A stretch of 64,000 nt of DNA, from the NCBI GenBank assembly GCA_963969495.1, contig OZ018331.1, positions 150,040,779-150,104,778 on the forward strand, given 5' to 3'. Below are positions 26,656-64,000 of this stretch, piece by piece (within the stretch, counting starts at the first letter, position 1; every line of letters starts with the position of its first letter). Source of the DNA: Ceratothoa steindachneri (Eukaryota > Arthropoda > Malacostraca > Isopoda > Cymothoidae). The notes under the pieces are model-generated. The model was not told where the DNA came from, did no database searches, and saw only the letters and a list, made by a program, of their open reading frames with translations. A program made the position numbers and the translations under genes.

Positions 26656-27430
26656 TACTCACACACACACACACCAATCCTTCTCTCCATTTAGAACACT
26701 TCCCGTGCTTACACACATACATACACGATCATTAGTGCTCATGTAGATCAATCCTTCTCTCCATTTAGAACACTTCCCGTGCTTACACACATACATACAC
26801 GATCATAAGTGCTCATGTAGATCAATCATATTTAGAACACTTCCCGTGCTTACACACATACATACACGATCATTAGTGCTCATGTAGATCAATCCTTCTC
26901 CATTTAGAACACTTCCCGTGCTTACACACATACATACACGATCATTAGTGCTCATGTAGATCAATCCTTCTCCATTTAGAACACTTCCCGTGCTTACACA
27001 CATACATACACGATCATTAGTGCTCATGTAGATCAATCCTTCTCCATTTAGAACACTTCCCGTGCTTACACACATACATACACGATCATTAGTGCTCATG
27101 TAGATCAATCATTTTCCATTTAGAACACTTCCCGTGCTTACACACATACATACACGATCATTAGTGCTCATGTAGATCAATCCTTCTCCATTTAGAACAC
27201 TTCCCGTGCTTACACACATACATACACGATCATTAGTGCTCATGTAGATCAATCCTTCTCCATTTAGAACACTTCATGTGCTTACACACATACATACACG
27301 ATCATTAGTGCTCATGTAGATCAATCCTTCTCCATTTAGAACACTTCATGTGCTTACACACATACATACACGATCATTAGTGCTCATGTAGATAAATCCT
27401 TCTTCATTTAAAACACTTCCCGTGCTTACA
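26656..27430. repeat. 72-bp minisatellite, about 10.5 copies
   Basis: Units contain CACTTCCCGTGCTTACACAC, ATACATACACGATCATTAGT and GCTCATGTAGATCAATCC. Period is 72 bp; the first units carry an extra CT (TTCTCTCC instead of TTCTCC), making 74 bp. Two late units have CACTTCATG for CACTTCCCG, and the last copy is diverged (GATAAATCCTTCTTCATTTAAA). Because 72 is divisible by three, the minus strand shows an open frame with a 24-residue repeat (IYMSTNDRVCMCVSTGSVLN). That ORF is a by-product, since it stops as soon as a unit has an indel. Confidence 0.95.
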
Positions 27431-29381: not shown

Positions 29382-30309
29382 CGAGGGGCGGTCAATAAGT
29401 TTTGCGAATCGGTAGGGCAAAACAGAGGAAGGAGAATGGCTGTTTTGGGGGGTGTTATGACAGGTCGTGACCTGCAGCCGCACGCTCCTGCCTCGTTTAT
29501 TTAAGAAGCAGTAGCTGATCGCAGATCGTCAGTCACAAATTTTTCAACAATGGAGAAGGTTGAGCTCCGCGCAGTGATCAAATTTTTGACCAAGGAAGGC
29601 AAGAATGCAAAAGAGATCCACAAACGCATGGTTGCAGTGTACACCGACACCGCTCCTTCCTATGCAACCATTGCTCGCTGGAATAGGGAGTTCCGCCATG
29701 GTTGTGAGTCCCTTGAAGATCACCCCCGTCCAGGACACCCATCAGACGTGACCAACGAGGACAATGTGGCCCGTGTGGAGAAGATGATCCTCGAAAATCG
29801 ACGGGTGAAGGTCGAAGAAATCGAGCGACAACTTGGAATATCACATGGAAGTGTTATCAACATCATCCATTCCAATTTGGCCATGACCAAGGTCTCTGCC
29901 CGTTGGGTCCCAGGAAACCTCACGCCCCATGATCGACTTCAACGTCGTCAAAGTCCACAAGGCCAGAGTTACACAGGCTGCCTTGCGCGAGTGTGGATTC
30001 GAGGAGCTCAACCATCCCCCCTACAGTCCAGATCTGACCCCTAGCGACAATTTTTTATTCCGCCAGCTCAAGGCTGCACTGCGTGGACGCCGGTTTCCGG
30101 TTTGGGACGATGGAGATGTCCAGCTCGCCGTCCAGGAGTGGATTGAACAGCAGTCGGGAGATTCCTGGTTGTCGGGAATTCGAAGCCTCAGGGACAAGTG
30201 GCGCAAGTGCATTGAAGTCGAGGGTAGTTAAATTGAAAAATAATAAAACACTTTTCCTCATATCTCATTTCCTTATATCCGAATTGCAAAACTTATTGAC
30301 CGCCCCTCC
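29382..30309 (+). mobile_element. Internally deleted mariner element (928 bp)
   Basis: Terminal inverted repeats of about 31 bp begin GAGGGGCGGTCAATAAGTTT on the left and end with the matching reverse complement on the right, with a few mismatches toward the inside. TA duplications flank it (29380-29381 and 30310-30311). The leader is short (about 165 bp) and the transposase is on the plus strand. At 928 bp it is about 350 bp shorter than an intact mariner. It is unrelated at the ends to the mariner at 24608-26020, so this is a different lineage. Confidence 0.94.
29550..30231 (+). pseudogene. Mariner transposase with the catalytic core deleted
   Basis: ATG at 29550 sits in good context (ACAATGG). 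The N-terminal DNA-binding half is intact: MEKVELRAVIKFL, a first helix-turn-helix, the GHPSD-type linker and a second HTH (RQLGISHGSVINII), continuing to NLTPHDRLQRR near 29945. The sequence then jumps, in another frame, to VHKARVTQAALREC and the C-terminal signature NHPPYSPDLTPSDNFLF, ending at TAA 30231. The block carrying the first two catalytic aspartates (normally in TGDE and HDNA motifs) is absent. About 230 of roughly 345 residues remain, with a frame change at the joint. The intact N-terminal ORF could make a DNA-binding-only fragment; whether it is expressed is unknown. Confidence 0.92.
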
Positions 30310-45426: not shown

Positions 45427-45895
45427 GAGGAAGTCTCTTGCTTAGCTTAGGAAAAGGCCTCTTGCTTGAGGGCGCTTGTGTTGTCATTGCCTTTTGAGGA
45501 TGCTTGTTTGTCCATGCTGTTAGGGAACGCTTTTCTTTGTCCTTGCTTTACTTTGAATACGATTGTTTTGTCCTTACTTTAATATGAGGACGCGTGTTTT
45601 TGTCCTTGCTTTTATTCGAGAACGCTTGTGTTTGTCCTAACTTTAAGTTGGGGACGCTTGCGTTTATCCTTGCTTCAATTTGAGGAAGCGAGTGTTTGCC
45701 TTTGCAATAATTCGAAGACTTTAGTATTTATCGTTGCTTTAATTTAAAGACTTACCGGCAAGACATTATGTTTGTCTTTGCTTTAATTTGAAGAGGCGCG
45801 TGCTTGTCGTTGCTTTAATTGGAGGACGTTTGTGTTTTTCATTGTTTTTATTTAGACGCTTGTGTTTGTCGTTGTTTTAATTTGAGAACTTTTTG
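45427..45895. repeat. 32-bp minisatellite, about 14 degenerate copies
   Basis: Units resemble GAGGACGCTTGTGTTTGTCC followed by TTGCTTTAATTT. Anchors such as GAGGACGCTTG fall near 45468, 45496, 45523, 45555, 45586, 45618, 45650, 45682, 45714, 45746, 45790, 45822, 45852 and 45884; spacing is mostly 31-32 bp, with a few shorter steps and one longer one. The copies are quite diverged, so the array is old. Confidence 0.9.
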
Positions 45896-49069: not shown

Positions 49070-51739
49070 TCAATTGTTTTGCGTCCATAAACGGCCACTT
49101 TTCAAGACTTTGTCTAGTCTTGACTTGAACTGGTCAACAGATTCACTGTTAACAACTTCCACTGGAAGTGCGTTCCACTTACCGCAGATACTGTAGGTGA
49201 AAAAGTTTCCACACAGATTGCGGTTGTAACGCTTCAGTTCAAGTTTGAAGCCGTGATTGCGCGTTCTGTTCTCACTCAGTGTGAAAATATCCCGGTAGTC
49301 AACATTGTCGAACCCTCGAAGTATTTTGAAGACTTCGATGAGCTGACCACGCAGTCTACGGGTTTCCAGTGAGAACAGATCTAACTCCCTTAGTCTATCC
49401 TCATAACTTTTATGTCGGATAGAGGGAATCAGCTTGGTTGCCCTGGCTTGTACGCGTTCCAATCTCGCGATGTCCTTTCGCAATGAAGGACTCCAAAATT
49501 GTACGGCATACTCCAGGTGCGGTCGGACAAGTGAGTTGTACAGGCACAGTACAATCTCCTGGTTCCGATAACCAAACTGGCGCTTAATATAGCCTAGCAT
49601 CCTTTGGGCCTTTTTCTCCGCCTCAATGCACTGTTTCGAGAACTTGAGGTCACTAGTGATTGTTACACCCAAGTCCTTCTCAGTGTCACTCGATTCAATA
49701 GCAGTGCCCTTAAGGATATACTGGGATTGGGGGTTTCTGTGGCCGATATGCATCACTTTGCATTTCCCCACGTTAAAAGGCATTTGCCACGTGTCCGACC
49801 ACTCCCCAATCTTCCCAAGATCTTCCTGCAGGCGGGCAGTATTTCCATCCTTTGCAACGTTCATACCAAGTTTGGTATCGTCGGCAAATTTGGAAATCTT
49901 GGCAACCATGTCACCGTCCATGTCGTTGACGTAGATGATGAATAGTAGTGGTCCCAGGACAGAACCTTGAGGCACCCCGCTAGTAACGGGCACCCACTCA
50001 GAAGACTGTCCATTCACCACCACCCGTTGCCGTCTGCCACTTAGCCAGTTCTCGATCCAGCCGGCTACCTTTCCGTCTATGCCAAGCGCTCGCACTTTCC
50101 GGAGAAGGCGGCGGTGTGGTACCTTATCAAAGGCTTTCTGAAAGTCTAGGTAGACCACATCCACCGCCTTGTCCCGATCGTGCTCGCTGAAAACGAAGTG
50201 GAAGAATTCTACAAGGTTCGTCAGGCATGACCGTTGCCTTCGGAAGCCGTGCTGGGAACTCCTCAGTAGCAGGTTTGACTCTAAATACGACGTCACTTTG
50301 TCCACCATGATGCTTTCCATGAGTTTACCGACTATCGAAGTCAGACTGATAGGTCGGTAGTTCGACGGTTGGTTACGGTCTCCTTTCTTGAAGATCGGAG
50401 TCACCTCCGCCTCACGCCAGTCTCTAGGAACGCATCCGGTCCGGATTGACATGTTAAAGATAGCGCACAGATGTCGTGATACTTCATCGCACACTTCCTT
50501 CAACACCTTGGATAGAAACCCGTCCGGTCCAGGGGACTTATTCGTCTTTAGGTCAGTGATCTTTTTCTTTATTTCTCCTTCAGTGAAGTCCATTGCCTCC
50601 AGCTTTTCCCCCGAGTAGGAATCCGTCGGCTGGGGAATGGGACCACACTCTTCAGTAAACACTGAAGAGAAGTAGTCGTTGAGGAAGTTAGCATTTTCTG
50701 CATCTAAGTGCTTTAATGTCCCTTCCTCATTCCTCAAAGGGCCAATCCTTCGACGGATTGGTTTACGGCTCTTCACATATCCAAAAAACTCCTTGGGATT
50801 CTCTTTACAGAGTCTCGCCACTCGGAGTTCCTCAGACCGCTTAGCCGCCCGTATGCTGGACTTCACTCTTCTGGATAGCCTCCGGTATTCGTCAAAGTCA
50901 CCCGAGATCTTCGATTGCCGGTACACATTCCTCTTCTCCCTAAGCAGTTGCCCGATTTCTCGATTAAACCACTTTGGTTGAACAGAGGACCGACGGGGGC
51001 ATTTCAGAGGGATGAAACGCGATTGAAGACTCATGAATGTGGTTTTGAAACTGTTCCAAGAGTCTTCAACAGCCTCTCACTCTTCTAGCCTCGCGTCAGT
51101 CAGTCCCGCGCGTAGACCTGCAAAGTCTGCTCTTCTCAAATCCAGTTTCCTTGATTTACTAGTTGCAGGCTCTGCCTTGGGGACTTTGACTACGAATCTA
51201 ATTATTCGGTGGTCACTGCCACCGAGCTCTTCGCAAACAGAGAGGTCCTCAACGATTTCATCCTCAGAGGTGAAAACCAAGTCGAGGATATTGTCTCCTC
51301 TCGTTGGCTTTCTCACCCATTGAGTGAGGAACTCGTTGTTCGTGAACTCCAGGAGTAGTGCGTTCTCGCCACAGGGTTCTCTGGTTTCCCAGTCAACTTG
51401 TGTGTTGAAATCACCCATGATGATACACACTCTGTCTTCGACAAGTTCTCCTAGTAGCTGGTACAGATCTCTGTCCTTTTCAACGAGTTGGGCAGGAGGT
51501 CTATAAAGCACCAGGGTCCTGTATTTGGCAGGACCTATCTCTAGGTCAACACCTAGTAGTTCATGGTCGGATACGATGTTGCAATCCGTCGAGTTGAGAG
51601 TATCCTTGACATACAACATCACACCGCCACCCTCTCTGTCTGGCCTATCTTTCTGGAAGAGCTGGTAACCGGGAATCGTGAATTCACCTTCAAAATCTCG
51701 GCTTGAGGTTTTAATCCACGTCTCCGTTATGGCCACCAT
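49070..51739 (-). pseudogene. CR1 ORF2: endonuclease plus reverse transcriptase, one in-frame stop
   Basis: A single frame runs from ATG 51739 to the stop at 49070, interrupted only by TGA at 51077-51079. With read-through it is about 889 codons, within the usual CR1 range. The endonuclease half has MVAITETWIK (catalytic Glu), IIMGDFNTQVDW and GGSDHRIIRF. The RT half, numbered from Met at 51034, has SPGPDG (167-172), NYRPISL (225-231), LDFQKAFD (296-303), SGVPQGSVLGP (352-362) and FADD (383-386), then LVRPHLEYAVQFWSP near 510. All catalytic residues I can check are present. Endonuclease homology extends upstream of 51739 (LLFNARSIRNKFLELRGL) in the same open frame, so translation probably starts earlier, overlapping the ORF1 end. 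No RNase H. Confidence 0.95.
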
Positions 51740-51846
51740 CTCAGGTTCCTCTGTTGCTACGAGGCCACGGAGCTCAAGAAACTTATTCCTGATTGACCTC
51801 GCGTTGAACAGGAGAACTTTGAGGGAGTCCCCCAGTGTAGGACTCC

Positions 51847-53100
51847 CTACGCTCTTCCGTTTCCCGGCTTCTTTTGTGTGGCAGTACCCCTCTTTGCCAC
51901 ATCTAAGAACGTCGTTCCAGGAGTGACACGGGCATACTGTCTTATGTCCGCCTTCACTCTGGGTCGGACGCTCCTCTGCGTCCGCTCTACGACATCCTGG
52001 ATTAAGTTACAGAGTACAGCCTTTCCCTTGAATGAAAGGTGCACTCCGTCCCTTTGGTAAAGGTCGTTTCGACCGTAAAAGGTGCGGTAAGGGTCCAGAA
52101 AGAAGACCCCTTCCGCTGTACAGAGGTCGGACAGGCGCTGGTTCAGGGTCACGTTCCTAGAGTGAGCTGTCCGGCTAGGACCTCTTCTTGGGAGCATCCC
52201 TACAACGACCCGTTTGCGAGTTCTCAATCCACAGTCGTCCACGGCTCCCATGACCGTGTTGAGAATTTTCTCGCTGGGGCCGACTTTGCCTCCTCGGAGG
52301 TAGAGGTCATTCCCACTCACCATCAGGGCAACGACTGAATTCTCGGAGATCTGAGATTTCTCAGCCTCTACCCTGATGTGGTGGTTTCCCCGTCCTGGCT
52401 GGCAGCATACCTCCACACTAGTGCGAAGGCGGGCCGCTAGCAGGGGCTGAAAACCTTGTGCTTGGGAGTCGCTCACGAGGGTAACCCTCGGACATTTCTG
52501 TGCAGAGGTTTGAGGCTTTCCTTGCGGAAGCGAACTCTTGGTTCGCTCTTTCTTCTCCATCTTATTTTTCTTGTTCTTCTTTTTCTTATTCGTCTCTTCC
52601 CCCTTATCTTCCTTTGTTACATACTCTTCTGTTTTTCTCTTTTCTTCCTCTGCTTCAACTTTCTCTTTTTCAGCTTCTACTTTATCTTCTGTTTCAACTT
52701 TCTCTTCTTCCTGTTTCTTTCCCTTCCTTTTCCTTTTCTTTGAGGGTTTATCCATAGCATGCGGACCTAGCTCTGGGGGTAATACTGCAGATGCAGTGTT
52801 CAGTACAGGGCTTGACGTTAGCTCTGCTATTCTCACCTCAAGCCTGCGAATCAGTCCGGCGTGTTCTAATTCGAGGCTGCTTATTTTTTCCTCCAACTTC
52901 CTGGATCTTTCCTCGGAAACCCTGCATGTTTCCTTTAGCTCCTTGATTTGGCCGTTTAAAATACAGTCGGTGCAGGAACTGGCCGGGTGGCATTTCGAAA
53001 AACACCCTTCCGGAAAGTCCACGCACCACTTATCTATGTGGCATATTGCGCACGTGTATTTTAGAGCTCCTGGTCCTTTCTTGCCGGTCATTCTGAACAC
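51847..53100 (-). CDS. CR1 ORF1 protein: zinc-binding, coiled-coil and SGNH esterase domains
   Basis: An intact 417-codon ORF. Residues 17-46 hold a Cys/His cluster (C17, C20, H21, C26, C33, C37, H38, C43, C46) like the PHD/ESSS-type zinc region of CR1 ORF1. Residues 50-95 form a Leu/Glu heptad-like coiled coil. Residues 115-190 are Lys/Glu low complexity. Residues 203-385 resemble an SGNH hydrolase, with VSDSQ (nucleophile S212), SGND (N264) and DGVHLS (D351, H354). In CR1 elements ORF1 is thought to bind element RNA, and the esterase may act on lipids; the activity is unproven here. The start at 53100 (MFRMTG) is the first ATG of the frame, with another at codon 4. Neighbouring ORF2 overlaps its end in another frame. 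Confidence 0.92.
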   Translation of the reverse strand: MFRMTGKKGPGALKYTCAICHIDKWCVDFPEGCFSKCHPASSCTDCILNGQIKELKETCRVSEERSRKLEEKISSLELEHAGLIRRLEVRIAELTSSPVLNTASAVLPPELGPHAMDKPSKKRKRKGKKQEEEKVETEDKVEAEKEKVEAEEEKRKTEEYVTKEDKGEETNKKKKNKKNKMEKKERTKSSLPQGKPQTSAQKCPRVTLVSDSQAQGFQPLLAARLRTSVEVCCQPGRGNHHIRVEAEKSQISENSVVALMVSGNDLYLRGGKVGPSEKILNTVMGAVDDCGLRTRKRVVVGMLPRRGPSRTAHSRNVTLNQRLSDLCTAEGVFFLDPYRTFYGRNDLYQRDGVHLSFKGKAVLCNLIQDVVERTQRSVRPRVKADIRQYARVTPGTTFLDVAKRGTATQKKPGNGRA

Positions 53101-53640
53101 TTTCTCTCTTTAAATACTTTGCGACCAATCAATGATAAAAAAGGGGGGTGGTGAGTTCTCCCCGCGTGAGTCACTCCCGCCTATCGATCGGAGACGTTTC
53201 GGATCTTTCAGAAGGCACGCTCCATGTGCTGCTGTTCGTCCGACCGAGTCGTCAAGCCTCGGCGTGCCGTGGCTCCCAACCAAGCAGCACAGACGGTCCC
53301 CGAAGGGGCCATCGATTTGTCACCAGGTGAACAGCAACGAAACACGCCCCTTACTAAACTCCTACTAGTTCCCTTCACAACGGCCAGGATCTCGGAGCAG
53401 CGTTCAATGGATATCCCGCCCCACCAAGAGACTCGACCCAAGGCTTTTTATTGGCCTGGCAACCAACCTGGGAACAAAGGGCCGTCACCTCGGACCGATG
53501 CTACCAGAGGCACCCGTCAACGGGCACTGGGAACGGTCAATAATTACGCGCCAGGGAAGGGGTTAACGGGGCACTACCCTCATCCCATTCATCGTGCCCC
53601 AACGCCTAGGACACCTCTAGTCCTAGTCTCTCGCAACCAG
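53101..53640 (-). promoter_or_regulatory. CR1 5' untranslated region with probable internal promoter
   Basis: A GC-rich leader precedes ORF1 on the minus strand and contrasts with AT-rich flanks. LINEs carry their promoter inside the 5' region, so this should hold it; no specific box was identified. Short ORFs here are on the opposite strand or lack domains. Confidence 0.5.
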
Positions 53641-54350: not shown

Positions 54351-56166
54351 GAGTAGTCCCAGCGGCAGATCCAGAAAAAGCGAATGGGAGGGGAGGGCAA
54401 TGCTAGGATTCTATGAGTTGATATTTGTTAAGGCTGCCTATTATGGTACATATTTTTACAAGTAATACATACATGATTATACAAATAATCAGTGCTGAAT
54501 ATATACGAATAAGTTATAGGCATAAATGGTTGTCGTAGTTTACGGCCGAGTACGGATGTACGTTCGATTCGTACATGAATTAATCCGTTCCACTTTTCTC
54601 TAATAGTGCTCTAATTTAATTCTTTAACCAGGGAGGCTTCGTATCATAATATATCTATTGACATTTGCTGCATTCAAGGATCTATTTAAACAACTCCGAC
54701 AAAATATACTTTTAATCACATAAAAGAACTATATATTAAATCTTTAAATACACTAATTTTATAGTAAGAACGTCTAATAAAAATCCACACTACAACTAAG
54801 TAATACGAGATGGTTGACGCAAAAATCACTTCTAATACACGCGATTTAAGCTCAATTAATGCTAGTTCTTAAGTCATTTGAAATTGAAATAGTCTGGTTA
54901 CGACTATTGGATTGAAATAGTTACGAATAGAGTTTGGAACGGAATTGTAAATAACAAAAAAATGAATATTTTTTGTATTCGTTTTACCTTTAACTCAGAG
55001 TGTGTCGACAGTTGGATGACCTTGAAAGTGAGACGCCTCAATGAGTTGGTTTGGGCGAGTTAGACTAGGGACGTCTTCGCTGAGGTGAGGCGAGCGAGGT
55101 AAGGTGAGTCGGAACAACAGCTGATGCTTCTCCCGGGGAGGTGGAAGCGAGTGACGATGCTTCTCTCGACTTTAAGATATAAGTGAGGGGATCTTGGATG
55201 AATGGAAGTTATCCCGATCTCCGTGTTACCAATTCTGGCTTCTCGACGATGAGACTTAACCAAGATGCGAATCCCTTCTCAAATGGGAATTCACTTTGGT
55301 CTTCCTCACTGGTTAGGGGTATCTGCTTTTTCAGCAAACTGAGATACGTGATTTTCTCTGGACGAGAATGGTAGGAGAGTTGGTTTCAATACCACTGGTC
55401 TGCTTCAATAAGCGACTAAAGGAACAGCCTCGCAGGAGGGTAAGTCTCACTTGGTTCCAACTATCTTCTTTATTCCCCGTTTAACTCAGGAACTCGTTTT
55501 CTTCTCTGGATGGCTACGCGAATTCTCCTCCAAATTTCTCAAGATCGAAATATATACGTCGATTATCCCCTGGGGAGAGGGGAGACGAGGGATTTTAGGA
55601 GTGGTGAACCCTCACTAGCCCACACTAAAGCCCCTCTCCTAGGGCATAAATTTTCAACGCTGTGACACCCCGCCCCTTCATGTTTACGCACGGAAAAGGT
55701 GAGGTTTCTTCTATTTGGCGAAAAATAGACATTAATAATCGGAGGGGATAGTGAGCTTGTTCATAGATTTTCTGCCGACGAAGCCTTAGGCAGCAAGATT
55801 TTTATTATAAACGGACTACACCACCAGTCTCGTAAATTATGAAATCTGCCGACCGAAATCCGTCTTTGCGCGCGACTTCGAAGGGTCTTGAGGCAGCTGG
55901 AAAAAGGGTCGGGGGTAAAGTCTTGGCCCATGTGGAGCGTAACGGTTGACGTTGTATAAACAAACTAGCGTCTGCTTGTCCTCGTCATATTCATTCCTGC
56001 ACAATGAAGAATATGTACATGTAGTGTAGACTATAATGATGTAGGCTAGCTGCAAGTCATTTCGCCCACTTAAGTAACAAGGTACATAATAGAAAAAGTA
56101 TTTTTATTTTCCAGGAGTAGGCTCACTCAAAGTCGTGGCCCATGCCTAGAGTCCCTCTTCATGTGC
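54351..56166. other. Intergenic DNA, nothing firmly recognised
   Basis: AT-rich to about 55000, then mixed composition with purine-rich runs (GGTGAGGCGAGCGAGGTAAG near 55084; GGGGAGAGGGGAGACGAGGG near 55570). ORFs are below 80 codons and lack domains. Short similar strings AAAGTCTTGGCCCATG (55917) and AAAGTCGTGGCCCATG (about 56129) may mark the end region of the hAT element, but no terminal inverted repeat was found. Confidence 0.4.
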
Positions 56167-57640
56167 CTAAGCGAAGAGAAGACTGCGGTTTTTCTCCTCA
56201 AACTTGTTAATCATTTGATCATTCGAAACTTGAATGTCATTGTGGACGGCGAGTAGGGCGAGGCCGTTAAGGCGATCCTGGCCAATGGTGCTCCTCATAT
56301 ACGTCTTTAGCCGTTTCAAGGCTGAGAATGAGCGTTCTGTCTCTGCAGCTACGACCGACAAAGTCATTAAGATGGTCAGGAGCTTTGCAATGTTCGTTAA
56401 CATATGGGTTTCGGCGTACTCCTTCTCATTCTTGGCAGTGCCGAAGACCAGAGCGGAATTGGTCCACAGCTATGCCTCCGCTTGAACGAATACCAGTGAC
56501 TCAATATCGCTCTCATAGAGCTTAGCGGCCTTAAGGACGGCATCCACGTCTGCCTTTCAGCCGTTGAGAAGCTCCTTCAACCGGAGAACAACTGGCATGG
56601 TATCGTCCTCAATTCTTCTCTTCAGCTCGGAAATCACTTAGTCAACGAACGAAATATAAACCGAACGTCGATAGTACTCCTCAGCAGTCCTGACCGGGAT
56701 ATTCTCGCACTAGGTCTGTCATGCACAGACTCGGGGAACATGGACGTCATCGTGAGCTGAGTCCACTTCAATCAGGAGATCCTTGGCTTTTGAGAAAATA
56801 CATTGTGGAAGTGCTCCTTGGCATTCTTTCTGAACTTGGCGAAAACAGTCTCTATCCCACGAATCAGTGCGTACGCAGATGCCAAGTTACCGTTCTTCTT
56901 CTGCAAGGGCCTGCTCGGTTCAAGTGTGTGGGCCAAAACTGGCTCCGCCACACCAGCTCAATGAAAAAGCGAGAGGCTCTAATCGCGGCGAGTAAGATTC
57001 CAGCATTGGCATCCAACTTCATTTCCTCTTCCATGAAGACCGCGATGTGAGGCAGAAACTTGATGAACACGAAGGCTGCACCATACAGCTCAACCCATCT
57101 GGTAGGACACAAGGGCACCAACTTCTCCCGCTTAGCTGAGGAAAATTCATGATTTTGGAGAACCGGAGCGTCCTCATGTTCCTGAAGTAAATTAAGTCAT
57201 GGACTTCGTTGAGCGTCTGAAGGGTGAGTTACACTTCTTTCACATTGCAGGCCTTGGTCAGAACCAGGTTCAGTCGTTGATTAAATCAGTGGATCGGTTT
57301 GGCGAGTGGGTATTGCTCCATGATGATAGCGGCACAACCTCTGAACTTCCCCATCATGACACTCGCTCCGTCGAAGGCAAAGCCCCGGCAGTTTGACAAG
57401 TCCAAACTAAGGCCATGTACGGTGTGAATGAGCAGTTGCCCCAGGCCTTCACCAGTGAGGTTCTTAGCATTGACGAAAGTGAGAAAGTTCTTCTTGATGT
57501 CCTTTTCAACGTGTCGAGGGATAATGGTGTCTTGCTCCTTCCCTGAGACGTCCGTGGTCTCGTCCATTAGCACTGCGAATACACCTCACACTCCGGCTAA
57601 TACCTCTTCCAGCACTAATCAACCTGTAAAGCGAAATATG
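56167..57640 (-). pseudogene. hAT-type (DUF4371/ZMYM-like) transposase relic
   Basis: Reading leftward on the minus strand: LEEVLAGV, a stop, then VFAVLMDETTDVSGKEQ (57600-57530, catalytic-core start), NLTGEGLGQLLIHTVHGL, CRGFAFDGASVMMGKFRG and EQYPLAKPIH (57286), then a shifted frame with NQRLNLVLTKACNVKEV, and LCPTRWVELYGAAFVFIKFL (57121-57060). The C-terminal dimerisation block ETERSFSALKRLKTYMRST is at about 56345-56290, with the end at 56167. This is the usual order for domesticated-like and active hAT transposases with an RNase-H fold: D in MDETTD, the CPTRW block and the ERSFS block. Stops and frameshifts show decay. The N-terminal zinc finger is not seen. The 56987-57958 part also forms the first unit of the 972-bp array. 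Confidence 0.88.
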
Positions 57641-60600
57641 AATATGGTGACATCGGTTCATAATGTCAAAATAGCATGAATTCTACTTTTGGAATAAGAG
57701 TCCTATTTGGGGGATAGAAGTTGCAGTGTCACCCATCTGTGGTATCGATCAGATCGTTCTGAATGGTTTTGCTAATGAGGGTGGAGTTGGCTTGGCTAGC
57801 CAAGCTGGTGAGAAGGTAGTTGACTTCGGCATCTCCTCCCTGGCTCTATTCTGTTTTGCTCGGAATAGAGAGGTCCAATGGACCGTCATATCAATGCCCA
57901 CGGAGAGGCAGCATATTTCGTCCGCAGAAGAGGATGCTCTCAATAACCTGAACCAACAGGCGAGTAAGATTCCAGCATTGGCATCCAACTTCATTTCCTC
58001 TTCCATGAAGACCGCGATGTGAGGCAGAAACTTGATGAACACGAGGGCTGCACCATACAGCTCAACCCATCTGGTAGGACACAAGGGCACCAACTTCTCC
58101 CGCTTAGCTGAGGAAAATTCATGATTTTGGAGAACCGGAGCGTCCTCATGTTCCTGAAGTAAATTAAGTCATGGACTTCGTTGAGCGTCTGAAGGGTGAG
58201 TTACACTTCTTTCACATTGCAGGCCTTGGTCAGAACCAGGTTCAGTCGTTGATTAAATCAGTGGATCGGTTTGGCGAGTGGGTATTGCTCCATGATGATA
58301 GCGGCACAACCTCTGAACTTCCCCATCATGACACTCGCTCCGTCGAAGGCAAAGCCCCGGCAGTTTGACAAGTCCAAACTAAGGCCATGTACGGTGTGAA
58401 TGAGCAGTTGCCCCAGGCCTTCACCAGTGAGGTTCTTAGCATTGACGAAAGTGAGAAAGTTCTTCTTGATGTCCTTTTCAACGTGTCGAGGGATAATGGT
58501 GTCTTGCTCCTTCCCTGAGACGTCCGTGGTCTCGTCCATTAGCACTGCGAATACACCTCACACTCCGGCTAATACCTCTTCCAGCACTAATCAACCTGTA
58601 AAGCGAAATATGAATATGGTGACATCGGTTCATAATGTCAAAATAGCATGAATTCTACTTTTGGAATAAGAGTCCTATTTGGGGGATAGAAGTTGCAGTG
58701 TCACCCATCTGTGGTATCGATCAGATCGTTCTGAATGGTTTTGCTAATGAGGGTGGAGTTGGCTTGGCTAGCCAAGCTGGTGAGAAGGTAGTTGACTTCG
58801 GCATCTCCTCCCTGGCTCTATTCTGTTTTGCTCGGAATAGAGAGGTCCAATGGACCGTCATATCAATGCCCACGGAGAGGCAGCATATTTCGTCCGCAGA
58901 AGAGGATGCTCTCAATAACCTGAACCAACAGGCGAGTAAGATTCCAGCATTGGCATCCAACTTCATTTCCTCTTCCATGAAGACCGCGATGTGAGGCAGA
59001 AACTTGATGAACACGAGGGCTGCACCATACAGCTCAACCCATCTGGTAGGACACAAGGGCACCAACTTCTCCCGCTTAGCTGAGGAAAATTCATGATTTT
59101 GGAGAACCGGAGCGTCCTCATGTTCCTGAAGTAAATTAAGTCATGGACTTCGTTGAGCGTCTGAAGGGTGAGTTACACTTCTTTCACATTGCAGGCCTTG
59201 GTCAGAACCAGGTTCAGTCGTTGATTAAATCAGTGGATCGGTTTGGCGAGTGGGTATTGCTCCATGATGATAGCGGCACAACCTCTGAACTTCCCCATCA
59301 TGACACTCGCTCCGTCGAAGGCAAAGCCCCGGCAGTTTGACAAGTCCAAACTAAGGCCATGTACGGTGTGAATGAGCAGTTGCCCCAGGCCTTCACCAGT
59401 GAGGTTCTTAGCATTGACGAAAGTGAGAAAGTTCTTCTTGATGTCCTTTTCAACGTGTCGAGGGATAATGGTGTCTTGCTCCTTCCCTGAGACGTCCGTG
59501 GTCTCGTCCATTAGCACTGCGAATACACCTCACACTCCGGCTAATACCTCTTCCAGCACTAATCAACCTGTAAAGCGAAATATGAATATGGTGACATCGG
59601 TTCATAATGTCAAAATAGCATGAATTCTACTTTTGGAATAAGAGTCCTATTTGGGGGATAGAAGTTGCAGTGTCACCCATCTGTGGTATCGATCAGATCG
59701 TTCTGAATGGTTTTGCTAATGAGGGTGGAGTTGGCTTGGCTAGCCAAGCTGGTGAGAAGGTAGTTGACTTCGGCATCTCCTCCCTGGCTCTATTCTGTTT
59801 TGCTCGGAATAGAGAGGTCCAATGGACCGTCATATCAATGCCCACGGAGAGGCAGCATATTTCGTCCGCAGAAGAGGATGCTCTCAATAACCTGAACCAA
59901 CAGGCGAGTAAGATTCCAGCATTGGCATCCAACTTCATTTCCTCTTCCATGAAGACCGCGATGTGAGGCAGAAACTTGATGAACACGAGGGCTGCACCAT
60001 ACAGCTCAACCCATCTGGTAGGACACAAGGGCACCAACTTCTCCCGCTTAGCTGAGGAAAATTCATGATTTTGGAGAACCGGAGCGTCCTCATGTTCCTG
60101 AAGTAAATTAAGTCATGGACTTCGTTGAGCGTCTGAAGGGTGAGTTACACTTCTTTCACATTGCAGGCCTTGGTCAGAACCAGGTTCAGTCGTTGATTAA
60201 ATCAGTGGATCGGTTTGGCGAGTGGGTATTGCTCCATGATGATAGCGGCACAACCTCTGAACTTCCCCATCATGACACTCGCTCCGTCGAAGGCAAAGCC
60301 CCGGCAGTTTGACAAGTCCAAACTAAGGCCATGTACGGTGTGAATGAGCAGTTGCCCCAGGCCTTCACCAGTGAGGTTCTTAGCATTGACGAAAGTGAGA
60401 AAGTTCTTCTTGATGTCCTTTTCAACGTGTCGAGGGATAATGGTGTCTTGCTCCTTCCCTGAGACGTCCGTGGTCTCGTCCATTAGCACTGCGAATACAC
60501 CTCACACTCCGGCTAATACCTCTTCCAGCACTAATCAACCTGTAAAGCGAAATATGAATATGGTGACATCGGTTCATAATGTCAAAATAGCATGAATTCT

Positions 60601-63600
60601 ACTTTTGGAATAAGAGTCCTATTTGGGGGATAGAAGTTGCAGTGTCACCCATCTGTGGTATCGATCAGATCGTTCTGAATGGTTTTGCTAATGAGGGTGG
60701 AGTTGGCTTGGCTAGCCAAGCTGGTGAGAAGGTAGTTGACTTCGGCATCTCCTCCCTGGCTCTATTCTGTTTTGCTCGGAATAGAGAGGTCCAATGGACC
60801 GTCATATCAATGCCCACGGAGAGGCAGCATATTTCGTCCGCAGAAGAGGATGCTCTCAATAACCTGAACCAACAGGCGAGTAAGATTCCAGCATTGGCAT
60901 CCAACTTCATTTCCTCTTCCATGAAGACCGCGATGTGAGGCAGAAACTTGATGAACACGAGGGCTGCACCATACAGCTCAACCCATCTGGTAGGACACAA
61001 GGGCACCAACTTCTCCCGCTTAGCTGAGGAAAATTCATGATTTTGGAGAACCGGAGCGTCCTCATGTTCCTGAAGTAAATTAAGTCATGGACTTCGTTGA
61101 GCGTCTGAAGGGTGAGTTACACTTCTTTCACATTGCAGGCCTTGGTCAGAACCAGGTTCAGTCGTTGATTAAATCAGTGGATCGGTTTGGCGAGTGGGTA
61201 TTGCTCCATGATGATAGCGGCACAACCTCTGAACTTCCCCATCATGACACTCGCTCCGTCGAAGGCAAAGCCCCGGCAGTTTGACAAGTCCAAACTAAGG
61301 CCATGTACGGTGTGAATGAGCAGTTGCCCCAGGCCTTCACCAGTGAGGTTCTTAGCATTGACGAAAGTGAGAAAGTTCTTCTTGATGTCCTTTTCAACGT
61401 GTCGAGGGATAATGGTGTCTTGCTCCTTCCCTGAGACGTCCGTGGTCTCGTCCATTAGCACTGCGAATACACCTCACACTCCGGCTAATACCTCTTCCAG
61501 CACTAATCAACCTGTAAAGCGAAATATGAATATGGTGACATCGGTTCATAATGTCAAAATAGCATGAATTCTACTTTTGGAATAAGAGTCCTATTTGGGG
61601 GATAGAAGTTGCAGTGTCACCCATCTGTGGTATCGATCAGATCGTTCTGAATGGTTTTGCTAATGAGGGTGGAGTTGGCTTGGCTAGCCAAGCTGGTGAG
61701 AAGGTAGTTGACTTCGGCATCTCCTCCCTGGCTCTATTCTGTTTTGCTCGGAATAGAGAGGTCCAATGGACCGTCATATCAATGCCCACGGAGAGGCAGC
61801 ATATTTCGTCCGCAGAAGAGGATGCTCTCAATAACCTGAACCAACAGGCGAGTAAGATTCCAGCATTGGCATCCAACTTCATTTCCTCTTCCATGAAGAC
61901 CGCGATGTGAGGCAGAAACTTGATGAACACGAGGGCTGCACCATACAGCTCAACCCATCTGGTAGGACACAAGGGCACCAACTTCTCCCGCTTAGCTGAG
62001 GAAAATTCATGATTTTGGAGAACCGGAGCGTCCTCATGTTCCTGAAGTAAATTAAGTCATGGACTTCGTTGAGCGTCTGAAGGGTGAGTTACACTTCTTT
62101 CACATTGCAGGCCTTGGTCAGAACCAGGTTCAGTCGTTGATTAAATCAGTGGATCGGTTTGGCGAGTGGGTATTGCTCCATGATGATAGCGGCACAACCT
62201 CTGAACTTCCCCATCATGACACTCGCTCCGTCGAAGGCAAAGCCCCGGCAGTTTGACAAGTCCAAACTAAGGCCATGTACGGTGTGAATGAGCAGTTGCC
62301 CCAGGCCTTCACCAGTGAGGTTCTTAGCATTGACGAAAGTGAGAAAGTTCTTCTTGATGTCCTTTTCAACGTGTCGAGGGATAATGGTGTCTTGCTCCTT
62401 CCCTGAGACGTCCGTGGTCTCGTCCATTAGCACTGCGAATACACCTCACACTCCGGCTAATACCTCTTCCAGCACTAATCAACCTGTAAAGCGAAATATG
62501 AATATGGTGACATCGGTTCATAATGTCAAAATAGCATGAATTCTACTTTTGGAATAAGAGTCCTATTTGGGGGATAGAAGTTGCAGTGTCACCCATCTGT
62601 GGTATCGATCAGATCGTTCTGAATGGTTTTGCTAATGAGGGTGGAGTTGGCTTGGCTAGCCAAGCTGGTGAGAAGGTAGTTGACTTCGGCATCTCCTCCC
62701 TGGCTCTATTCTGTTTTGCTCGGAATAGAGAGGTCCAATGGACCGTCATATCAATGCCCACGGAGAGGCAGCATATTTCGTCCGCAGAAGAGGATGCTCT
62801 CAATAACCTGAACCAACAGGCGAGTAAGATTCCAGCATTGGCATCCAACTTCATTTCCTCTTCCATGAAGACCGCGATGTGAGGCAGAAACTTGATGAAC
62901 ACGAGGGCTGCACCATACAGCTCAACCCATCTGGTAGGACACAAGGGCACCAACTTCTCCCGCTTAGCTGAGGAAAATTCATGATTTTGGAGAACCGGAG
63001 CGTCCTCATGTTCCTGAAGTAAATTAAGTCATGGACTTCGTTGAGCGTCTGAAGGGTGAGTTACACTTCTTTCACATTGCAGGCCTTGGTCAGAACCAGG
63101 TTCAGTCGTTGATTAAATCAGTGGATCGGTTTGGCGAGTGGGTATTGCTCCATGATGATAGCGGCACAACCTCTGAACTTCCCCATCATGACACTCGCTC
63201 CGTCGAAGGCAAAGCCCCGGCAGTTTGACAAGTCCAAACTAAGGCCATGTACGGTGTGAATGAGCAGTTGCCCCAGGCCTTCACCAGTGAGGTTCTTAGC
63301 ATTGACGAAAGTGAGAAAGTTCTTCTTGATGTCCTTTTCAACGTGTCGAGGGATAATGGTGTCTTGCTCCTTCCCTGAGACGTCCGTGGTCTCGTCCATT
63401 AGCACTGCGAATACACCTCACACTCCGGCTAATACCTCTTCCAGCACTAATCAACCTGTAAAGCGAAATATGAATATGGTGACATCGGTTCATAATGTCA
63501 AAATAGCATGAATTCTACTTTTGGAATAAGAGTCCTATTTGGGGGATAGAAGTTGCAGTGTCACCCATCTGTGGTATCGATCAGATCGTTCTGAATGGTT

Positions 63601-64000
63601 TTGCTAATGAGGGTGGAGTTGGCTTGGCTAGCCAAGCTGGTGAGAAGGTAGTTGACTTCGGCATCTCCTCCCTGGCTCTATTCTGTTTTGCTCGGAATAG
63701 AGAGGTCCAATGGACCGTCATATCAATGCCCACGGAGAGGCAGCATATTTCGTCCGCAGAAGAGGATGCTCTCAATAACCTGAACCAACAGGCGAGTAAG
63801 ATTCCAGCATTGGCATCCAACTTCATTTCCTCTTCCATGAAGACCGCGATGTGAGGCAGAAACTTGATGAACACGAGGGCTGCACCATACAGCTCAACCC
63901 ATCTGGTAGGACACAAGGGCACCAACTTCTCCCGCTTAGCTGAGGAAAATTCATGATTTTGGAGAACCGGAGCGTCCTCATGTTCCTGAAGTAAATTAAG
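56987..64000 (-). repeat. 972-bp satellite derived from the hAT transposase, about 7.2 copies, open to the right
   Basis: The sequence repeats with a period of exactly 972 bp. The block GGCGAGTAAGATTCCAGC starts at 56987 and 57959 and then every 972 bp, and the ORF set recurs at +972 six times. Every spot checked in copies 2-7 is identical. Copy 1 differs at one base (near 57072, GAAGGC versus GAGGGC) that changes Phe to Leu in the minus-strand frame. Each unit carries the MDETTD-CPTRW part of the transposase plus a 3' segment (about 57700-57958) reading ADEICCLSVGID on the minus strand. The left boundary lies inside the transposase, where AGILLAAIRASRF in the single-copy flank becomes AGILLACWFRL at each internal junction. 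The array reaches the window end. Confidence 0.97.

Follow-up and report, generated by a model that had tools for sequence, protein, structure and literature searches.

Few satellites still reveal their beginnings, and the locus described here, found in the genome of the isopod Ceratothoa steindachneri, raises the question of such a beginning rather directly: which sequence did its 972-bp tandem array come from, by which steps was it formed, and how recently did this happen relative to the age of its parent? The window (i.e., the whole 64,000-nucleotide stretch of DNA analyzed, C15:150040779-150104778) belongs to an assembly of 3,927,640,985 bases in 529 contigs, in which 4.9 Mb separate the array from the end of its 155-Mb contig. 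The right-hand neighbor of the window (L009) was considered together with it, and the window numbering, when carried into this neighbor, is referred to below as “extended” coordinates.

Organization of the 972-bp array

Repeat detection revealed head-to-tail repeats with an exact start-to-start spacing of 972 bp from 56987 to the window end at 64000, amounting to seven full copies plus the first 210 bp of another (7.2 copies), and the coordinates, period, and copy number (about 7.2) given for this array by the initial annotation of the window were thus right. A single substitution, in copy 1, had also been claimed, and the lag-972 comparison of the part of the array inside the window indeed results in a single mismatch, at 57073, where copy 1 has A and copy 2 has G. 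When followed into the neighboring sequence, the whole array is 7776 bp long and is made up of exactly eight units joined at seven junctions (56987-64762 in extended coordinates), and a one-unit query against the window's own assembly likewise returned eight consecutive full units at C15:150097765-150105540; the eighth ends at extended 64762 (L009:762), and what comes next is not the start of another unit. Units 2-7 are identical to one another, and the two end units carry one private change each: A for G at unit position 87 in unit 1 (window 57073) and T for A at unit position 837 in unit 8 (extended 64627). The tandem head-to-tail organization at high identity that is characteristic of satellite DNA is therefore present (eight units, two differences), and a chance origin of 7.8 kb of such identity is impossible. 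The coordinates of the array, its host element, and the adjoining features are given in Table 1.

Table 1. Features of the locus in window numbering, with extended coordinates where a feature runs past the right edge of the window.
Feature	Position	Strand	Basis or remark
Host hAT element	54360..64000, on to extended 65891 (L009:1891)	- (transposase)	blastn against 11 dispersed relatives
Nested insertion, about 1.47 kb	54527..56002	.	skipped by relatives covering both sides; site compared with L010 and L018
Single-copy parental left flank	56003..56986	-	C-terminal part of transposase with hAT dimerization region; contiguous with unit in relatives
Unit 1	56987..57958	-	private A at 57073
Unit 2	57959..58930	-	identical to units 3-7
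Unit 3	58931..59902	-	
Unit 4	59903..60874	-	
Unit 5	60875..61846	-	
Unit 6	61847..62818	-	
Unit 7	62819..63790	-	
Unit 8, first 210 bp	63791..64000	-	continues to extended 64762; single-copy parental sequence then to 65891

The identity of units 2-7 is also what one would see if the assembler had repeated an inner unit and fewer units, perhaps one to three, were real, the number of units being judged here from the assembled sequence. We nevertheless deem such an artefact unlikely, since continuous parental sequence flanks the array on both sides and the distinct changes of the end units (unless they are base errors) require at least two real copies; an array of 7.8 kb could, in addition, be covered by a single long read.

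As 972 is divisible by 3, a coding repeat protein was also considered, and it was rejected on account of units 1 and 2 having stops in all three minus-strand frames, a rejection that extends to units 3-7, which are identical to the translated unit 2.

The hAT parent, its relatives, and the breakpoints

Elsewhere in the assembly, the unit was found as one copy at each of the 39 places listed, at 84-88% identity (40 of 607 candidates scored, two of which concern one and the same copy), and the left flank, too, is single wherever else it was listed (39 places; 40 of 782 candidates scored). From the places matching the unit, 11 dispersed 10-kb loci (L010-L020) were drawn as relatives, namely eight of the best nine places and three with shorter matches. 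Their blastn alignments cross the unit and extend outward on one or both sides. In the alignment, the left breakpoint of the array is run through by 10 of the 11 (L020 has a gap just left of this breakpoint, which its blastn match crosses), and the right one by 8 of the 11. The other three (L018, L019, and L020) break off near unit position 857 (856-857) and thus say little about the right breakpoint; in L020, similarity returns after about 0.93 kb and then spans this breakpoint (as a separate blastn piece), in L018 a 40-base piece is seen 40 bases beyond the interruption, and the interruption common to the three could reflect a shared insertion or a subfamily. Whole-assembly searches also show left-flank and unit matches that abut in several relatives (e.g., C8:87220494/87220495 and C5:147199101/147199102), while for the right side parental continuity is drawn from the 11 fetched relatives. 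The view that the left flank preserves the parent, put forward in the initial annotation, is hence borne out by both blastn and the alignment of the relatives, and parental sequence continues on the other side of the array as well, just outside the window.

Judging by these comparisons, the parent is a single decayed copy of a hAT transposon that is dispersed in the assembly, and this host copy holds both the nested insertion and the eight-unit array. An origin inside a hAT transposase pseudogene had already been suggested, and it agrees with the minus strand, which encodes parts of a hAT transposase on translation, and with the hAT C-terminal dimerization domain, for which a 129-aa piece of the single-copy left flank (with X placed at one stop) scored 31.8 bits against PF05699, the cut-off being 21.4. 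A 98-aa fragment of the unit came just below the cut-off of PF14291 (DUF4371; 30.6 bits vs. 32.1, E 4.1e-07), and the adjacent 95-aa piece had no Pfam match (no match for three further pieces of the locus in all). When the open frame of L018 (324 aa) was used as a query, 22 proteins were retrieved, with PF14291 present in many of them, and the named homologues are from the crustaceans Eriocheir sinensis and Oratosquilla oratoria and, more distantly, from the beetle Aquatica leii. Short terminal inverted repeats accompanied by an 8-bp target duplication, as befits a hAT element, could be recognized by eye in this copy and its relatives: the terminal repeats of this copy are CAGCGGCAGATCCAG at the left end and TTGGATCCGCCTCTG at the right end, and its flanking 8-bp target duplication is imperfect (AGTAGTCC / AGTGTCCT, which are alike only if one base was lost), with the duplication being exact in L011 (AATGTTTT) and matching at 7/8 positions in L010 and L016.

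The nested insertion, the edges of which are accurate to a few bases, is later than the hAT copy itself, as the comparison with relatives shows; without the insertion and with one unit, this copy is about 3.25 kb long (3254 by script, its edges being off by a few bases). Between two transposase coding parts, there is a stretch at 57617-57745 (with its equivalent in the other units) that ends with TTTACAG on the minus strand and whose equivalent end is translated in L014, L018, and L019; in our own reading, it may be regarded as an intron.

At the array edges, the flanking sequence is CGC-GGCG-AGTAAG on the left and ACA-GGCG-CCGG on the right, with GGCG (4 bp) common to both breakpoints. A match of at least 4 bp is expected in 1.6% of random joins (assuming equal base frequencies), and as a sign of microhomology this one is suggestive only. 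The 32-base unit-to-unit junction, searched with up to 3 mismatches, had seven matches assembly-wide, all of them in this array (junction counts for repeats may be lower bounds), and the reversed control of the junction pattern had zero matches in the assembly. This bears on whether the array is but one member of an established satellite family, which its uniform tandem organization resembles and which the word “satellite” in the initial annotation would imply. Such a family was rejected and is barely conceivable at all, given that none of the junction matches in the 3.93-Gb assembly, at up to 3 mismatches, fell outside this array, and that the matches listed elsewhere represent single dispersed transposon copies. 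Instead of the long arrays and/or many loci by which satellite DNA is also known, there is one 7776-bp array, i.e., a single-locus array that falls short of a satellite in both copy number and spread.

Repeats of other kinds are also seen in and around the locus. Positions 1-21745 are occupied by an AT-rich satellite with a 41-bp unit (about 531 copies, 92% match, GC about 23%), which reaches the left window edge and is the window's long satellite-like array; a 72-bp tandem repeat (10.5 copies, 96% match) is located at 26675-27430, and degenerate 32-bp tandem repeats (70-73% match) at 45527-45885. When 300-bp windows were compared at lags of 100-3000 bp and an identity of at least 90% was required, only the 72-bp and the 972-bp arrays emerged in the window beyond the 41-bp array. 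The same scan of L009 and L010-L020, a small control from which too few bases are available to derive a base rate, returned an array in one of the 12 loci; it consists of unrelated tandem repeats of about 358 bp at L015:8072-9937 and lies outside the hAT copy present there. Among other mobile elements, the window contains a non-LTR retrotransposon at 49070-53109, whose long minus-strand open frames include one of 668 aa that matches reverse transcriptase (PF00078) and, upstream of it, two of 309 aa and 420 aa; similar reverse transcriptase frames are present in L020. The window also contains the remnant of a Mariner (Mos1-type) transposase with an HTH_48 match at 29505-30231. Rfam had 0 matches in the window.

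Relative timing of the amplification

At unit position 87, the relatives have G in 10 of the 11 cases and T in the remaining one, with A in none, and at unit position 837 they have A in 10 of the 11 and G in one, with T in none. Both private changes of the end units thus look derived from this comparison, and, since neither private base is present in any of the 11 relatives, the two are most simply explained as changes that followed the formation of the array. This copy differs from the majority of the relatives at 95 of 1172 positions (8.1%), with the difference from individual relatives ranging from 5.5% to 11.0%, and two changes in 7776 bp set against this divergence give a ratio of 0.3% (95% range 0.04-1.1%, derived from the count of two alone), by which the last amplification or homogenization would be put at about 0.3% of the age of the hAT copy. 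The very recent amplification or homogenization proposed in the initial annotation is well in line with this estimate. When the parts of the element are compared with the majority of six relatives, the divergence is broadly alike (8.5% for the left flank, 7.4% for the unit, and 6.1% for the right flank), as would be expected if the whole element had aged as one and been amplified late.

An in-frame TGA is present in all eight units. The same codon is TCA or TCT in three of six relatives, those in which the search motif was found (the other three gave no match to it), and the open frames of L014, L018, and L019 cross the TGA site without a stop. As the stop is common to all eight units, the transposase gene was already broken at the time of amplification. 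The amplification of a working transposase gene was accordingly rejected, with this stop being carried by every unit and absent from the relatives examined. Both private changes sit in end units, for which the chance probability is 1 in 16, and this is at most a hint that the inner units have been homogenized.

Origin of the array and comparison with known systems

The array most probably originated by local tandem duplication at microhomology in one old, broken hAT copy, followed by expansion through unequal exchange. An internal 972-bp stretch of the transposase region of this copy would have been duplicated in tandem locally, with the new joint arising via the 4-bp GGCG present at both breakpoints, as happens in template switching during replication or in microhomology-mediated end joining, and the two identical neighbors would then have permitted unequal sister-chromatid exchange, or similar recombination, to bring the array to eight units. 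We infer both the repair route behind the first duplication and the role of unequal exchange as the multiplier, and a continuing homogenization of the inner units is possible, if on slender grounds; no function for the array is needed or indicated. The same structure would be yielded by rolling-circle amplification with homologous reintegration, i.e., by the excision of the 972-bp piece as an extrachromosomal circle, its rolling-circle copying, and its return to the source by homologous recombination, which would account for the whole number of units, the identical inner units, and the parental flanks alike, and a 2025 review considers rolling-circle models for arrays of transposon origin, mainly those from Helitrons (PMC12628747). 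Such a route, however, requires more steps than local duplication and exchange, and we hold it to be quite improbable.

On the reading of local duplication and subsequent unequal exchange, the array is possibly a first step towards a satellite. A bolder version, which we regard as doubtful, would see in it a satellite in its first steps, with one relatively dated birth event, for which both parental flanks, the microhomology, and the succession from the insertion of the element through its decay to duplication and expansion are still legible, with inner units already homogenized faster than the ends, and with a copy number that probably still varies between individuals.

Hobo is a hAT element, just as the parent of the present array is. 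According to the 2025 review (PMC12628747), it has expanded to 16 tandem copies and resembles the present case in being a transposon amplified in tandem that is viewed as raw material for satellites; its dimers, however, are said there to arise mainly from insertion-site preference, with elements landing side by side, whereas in the present array an internal piece is repeated within one broken element, with the joint at a candidate 4-bp microhomology. In Chenopodium, the satellite CficCl-61-40 derives from the tnp2 domain of a CACTA-like transposon (PMC7320549) and is thus alike in having a unit from the transposase region of a DNA transposon and an array that adjoins its parent, but it started from a monomer of about 40 bp and became the most abundant satellite family of several species, while the present array has a 972-bp unit in eight copies at one locus. 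With these two published examples at hand, the initial annotation's statement that arrays born from the body of a DNA transposon are uncommon is overstated.

Arrays from internal parts of DNA transposons are, moreover, described in the same 2025 review, which includes miDNA4 and Xstir of Xenopus MITEs, both being tandem arrays formed from the internal sequence of a DNA transposon (PMC12628747). Short direct repeats are invoked there for the copy-number change of miDNA4, to which the present case may be likened (PMC12628747); the Xenopus elements are, however, miniature and non-autonomous, with miDNA4 having a captured repeat (PMC12628747), whereas the present array lies in one copy of a coding element and consists of that element's own transposase sequence. 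A 2022 review tabulates such cases and states that the prevailing sources are terminal and non-coding parts (PMC9659126).

The present array is a further case of a known type of event, set apart mainly by the clarity with which its origin can be traced, and the knowledge of transposon-derived repeats is unchanged by it. What the locus offers is that a single assembly reveals the parent, the two breakpoints, and, for each of the two variable sites, the ancestral state, which allows models of array birth through microhomology-mediated duplication and subsequent unequal exchange to be checked against it, and the copy number of the array could be followed in a population.
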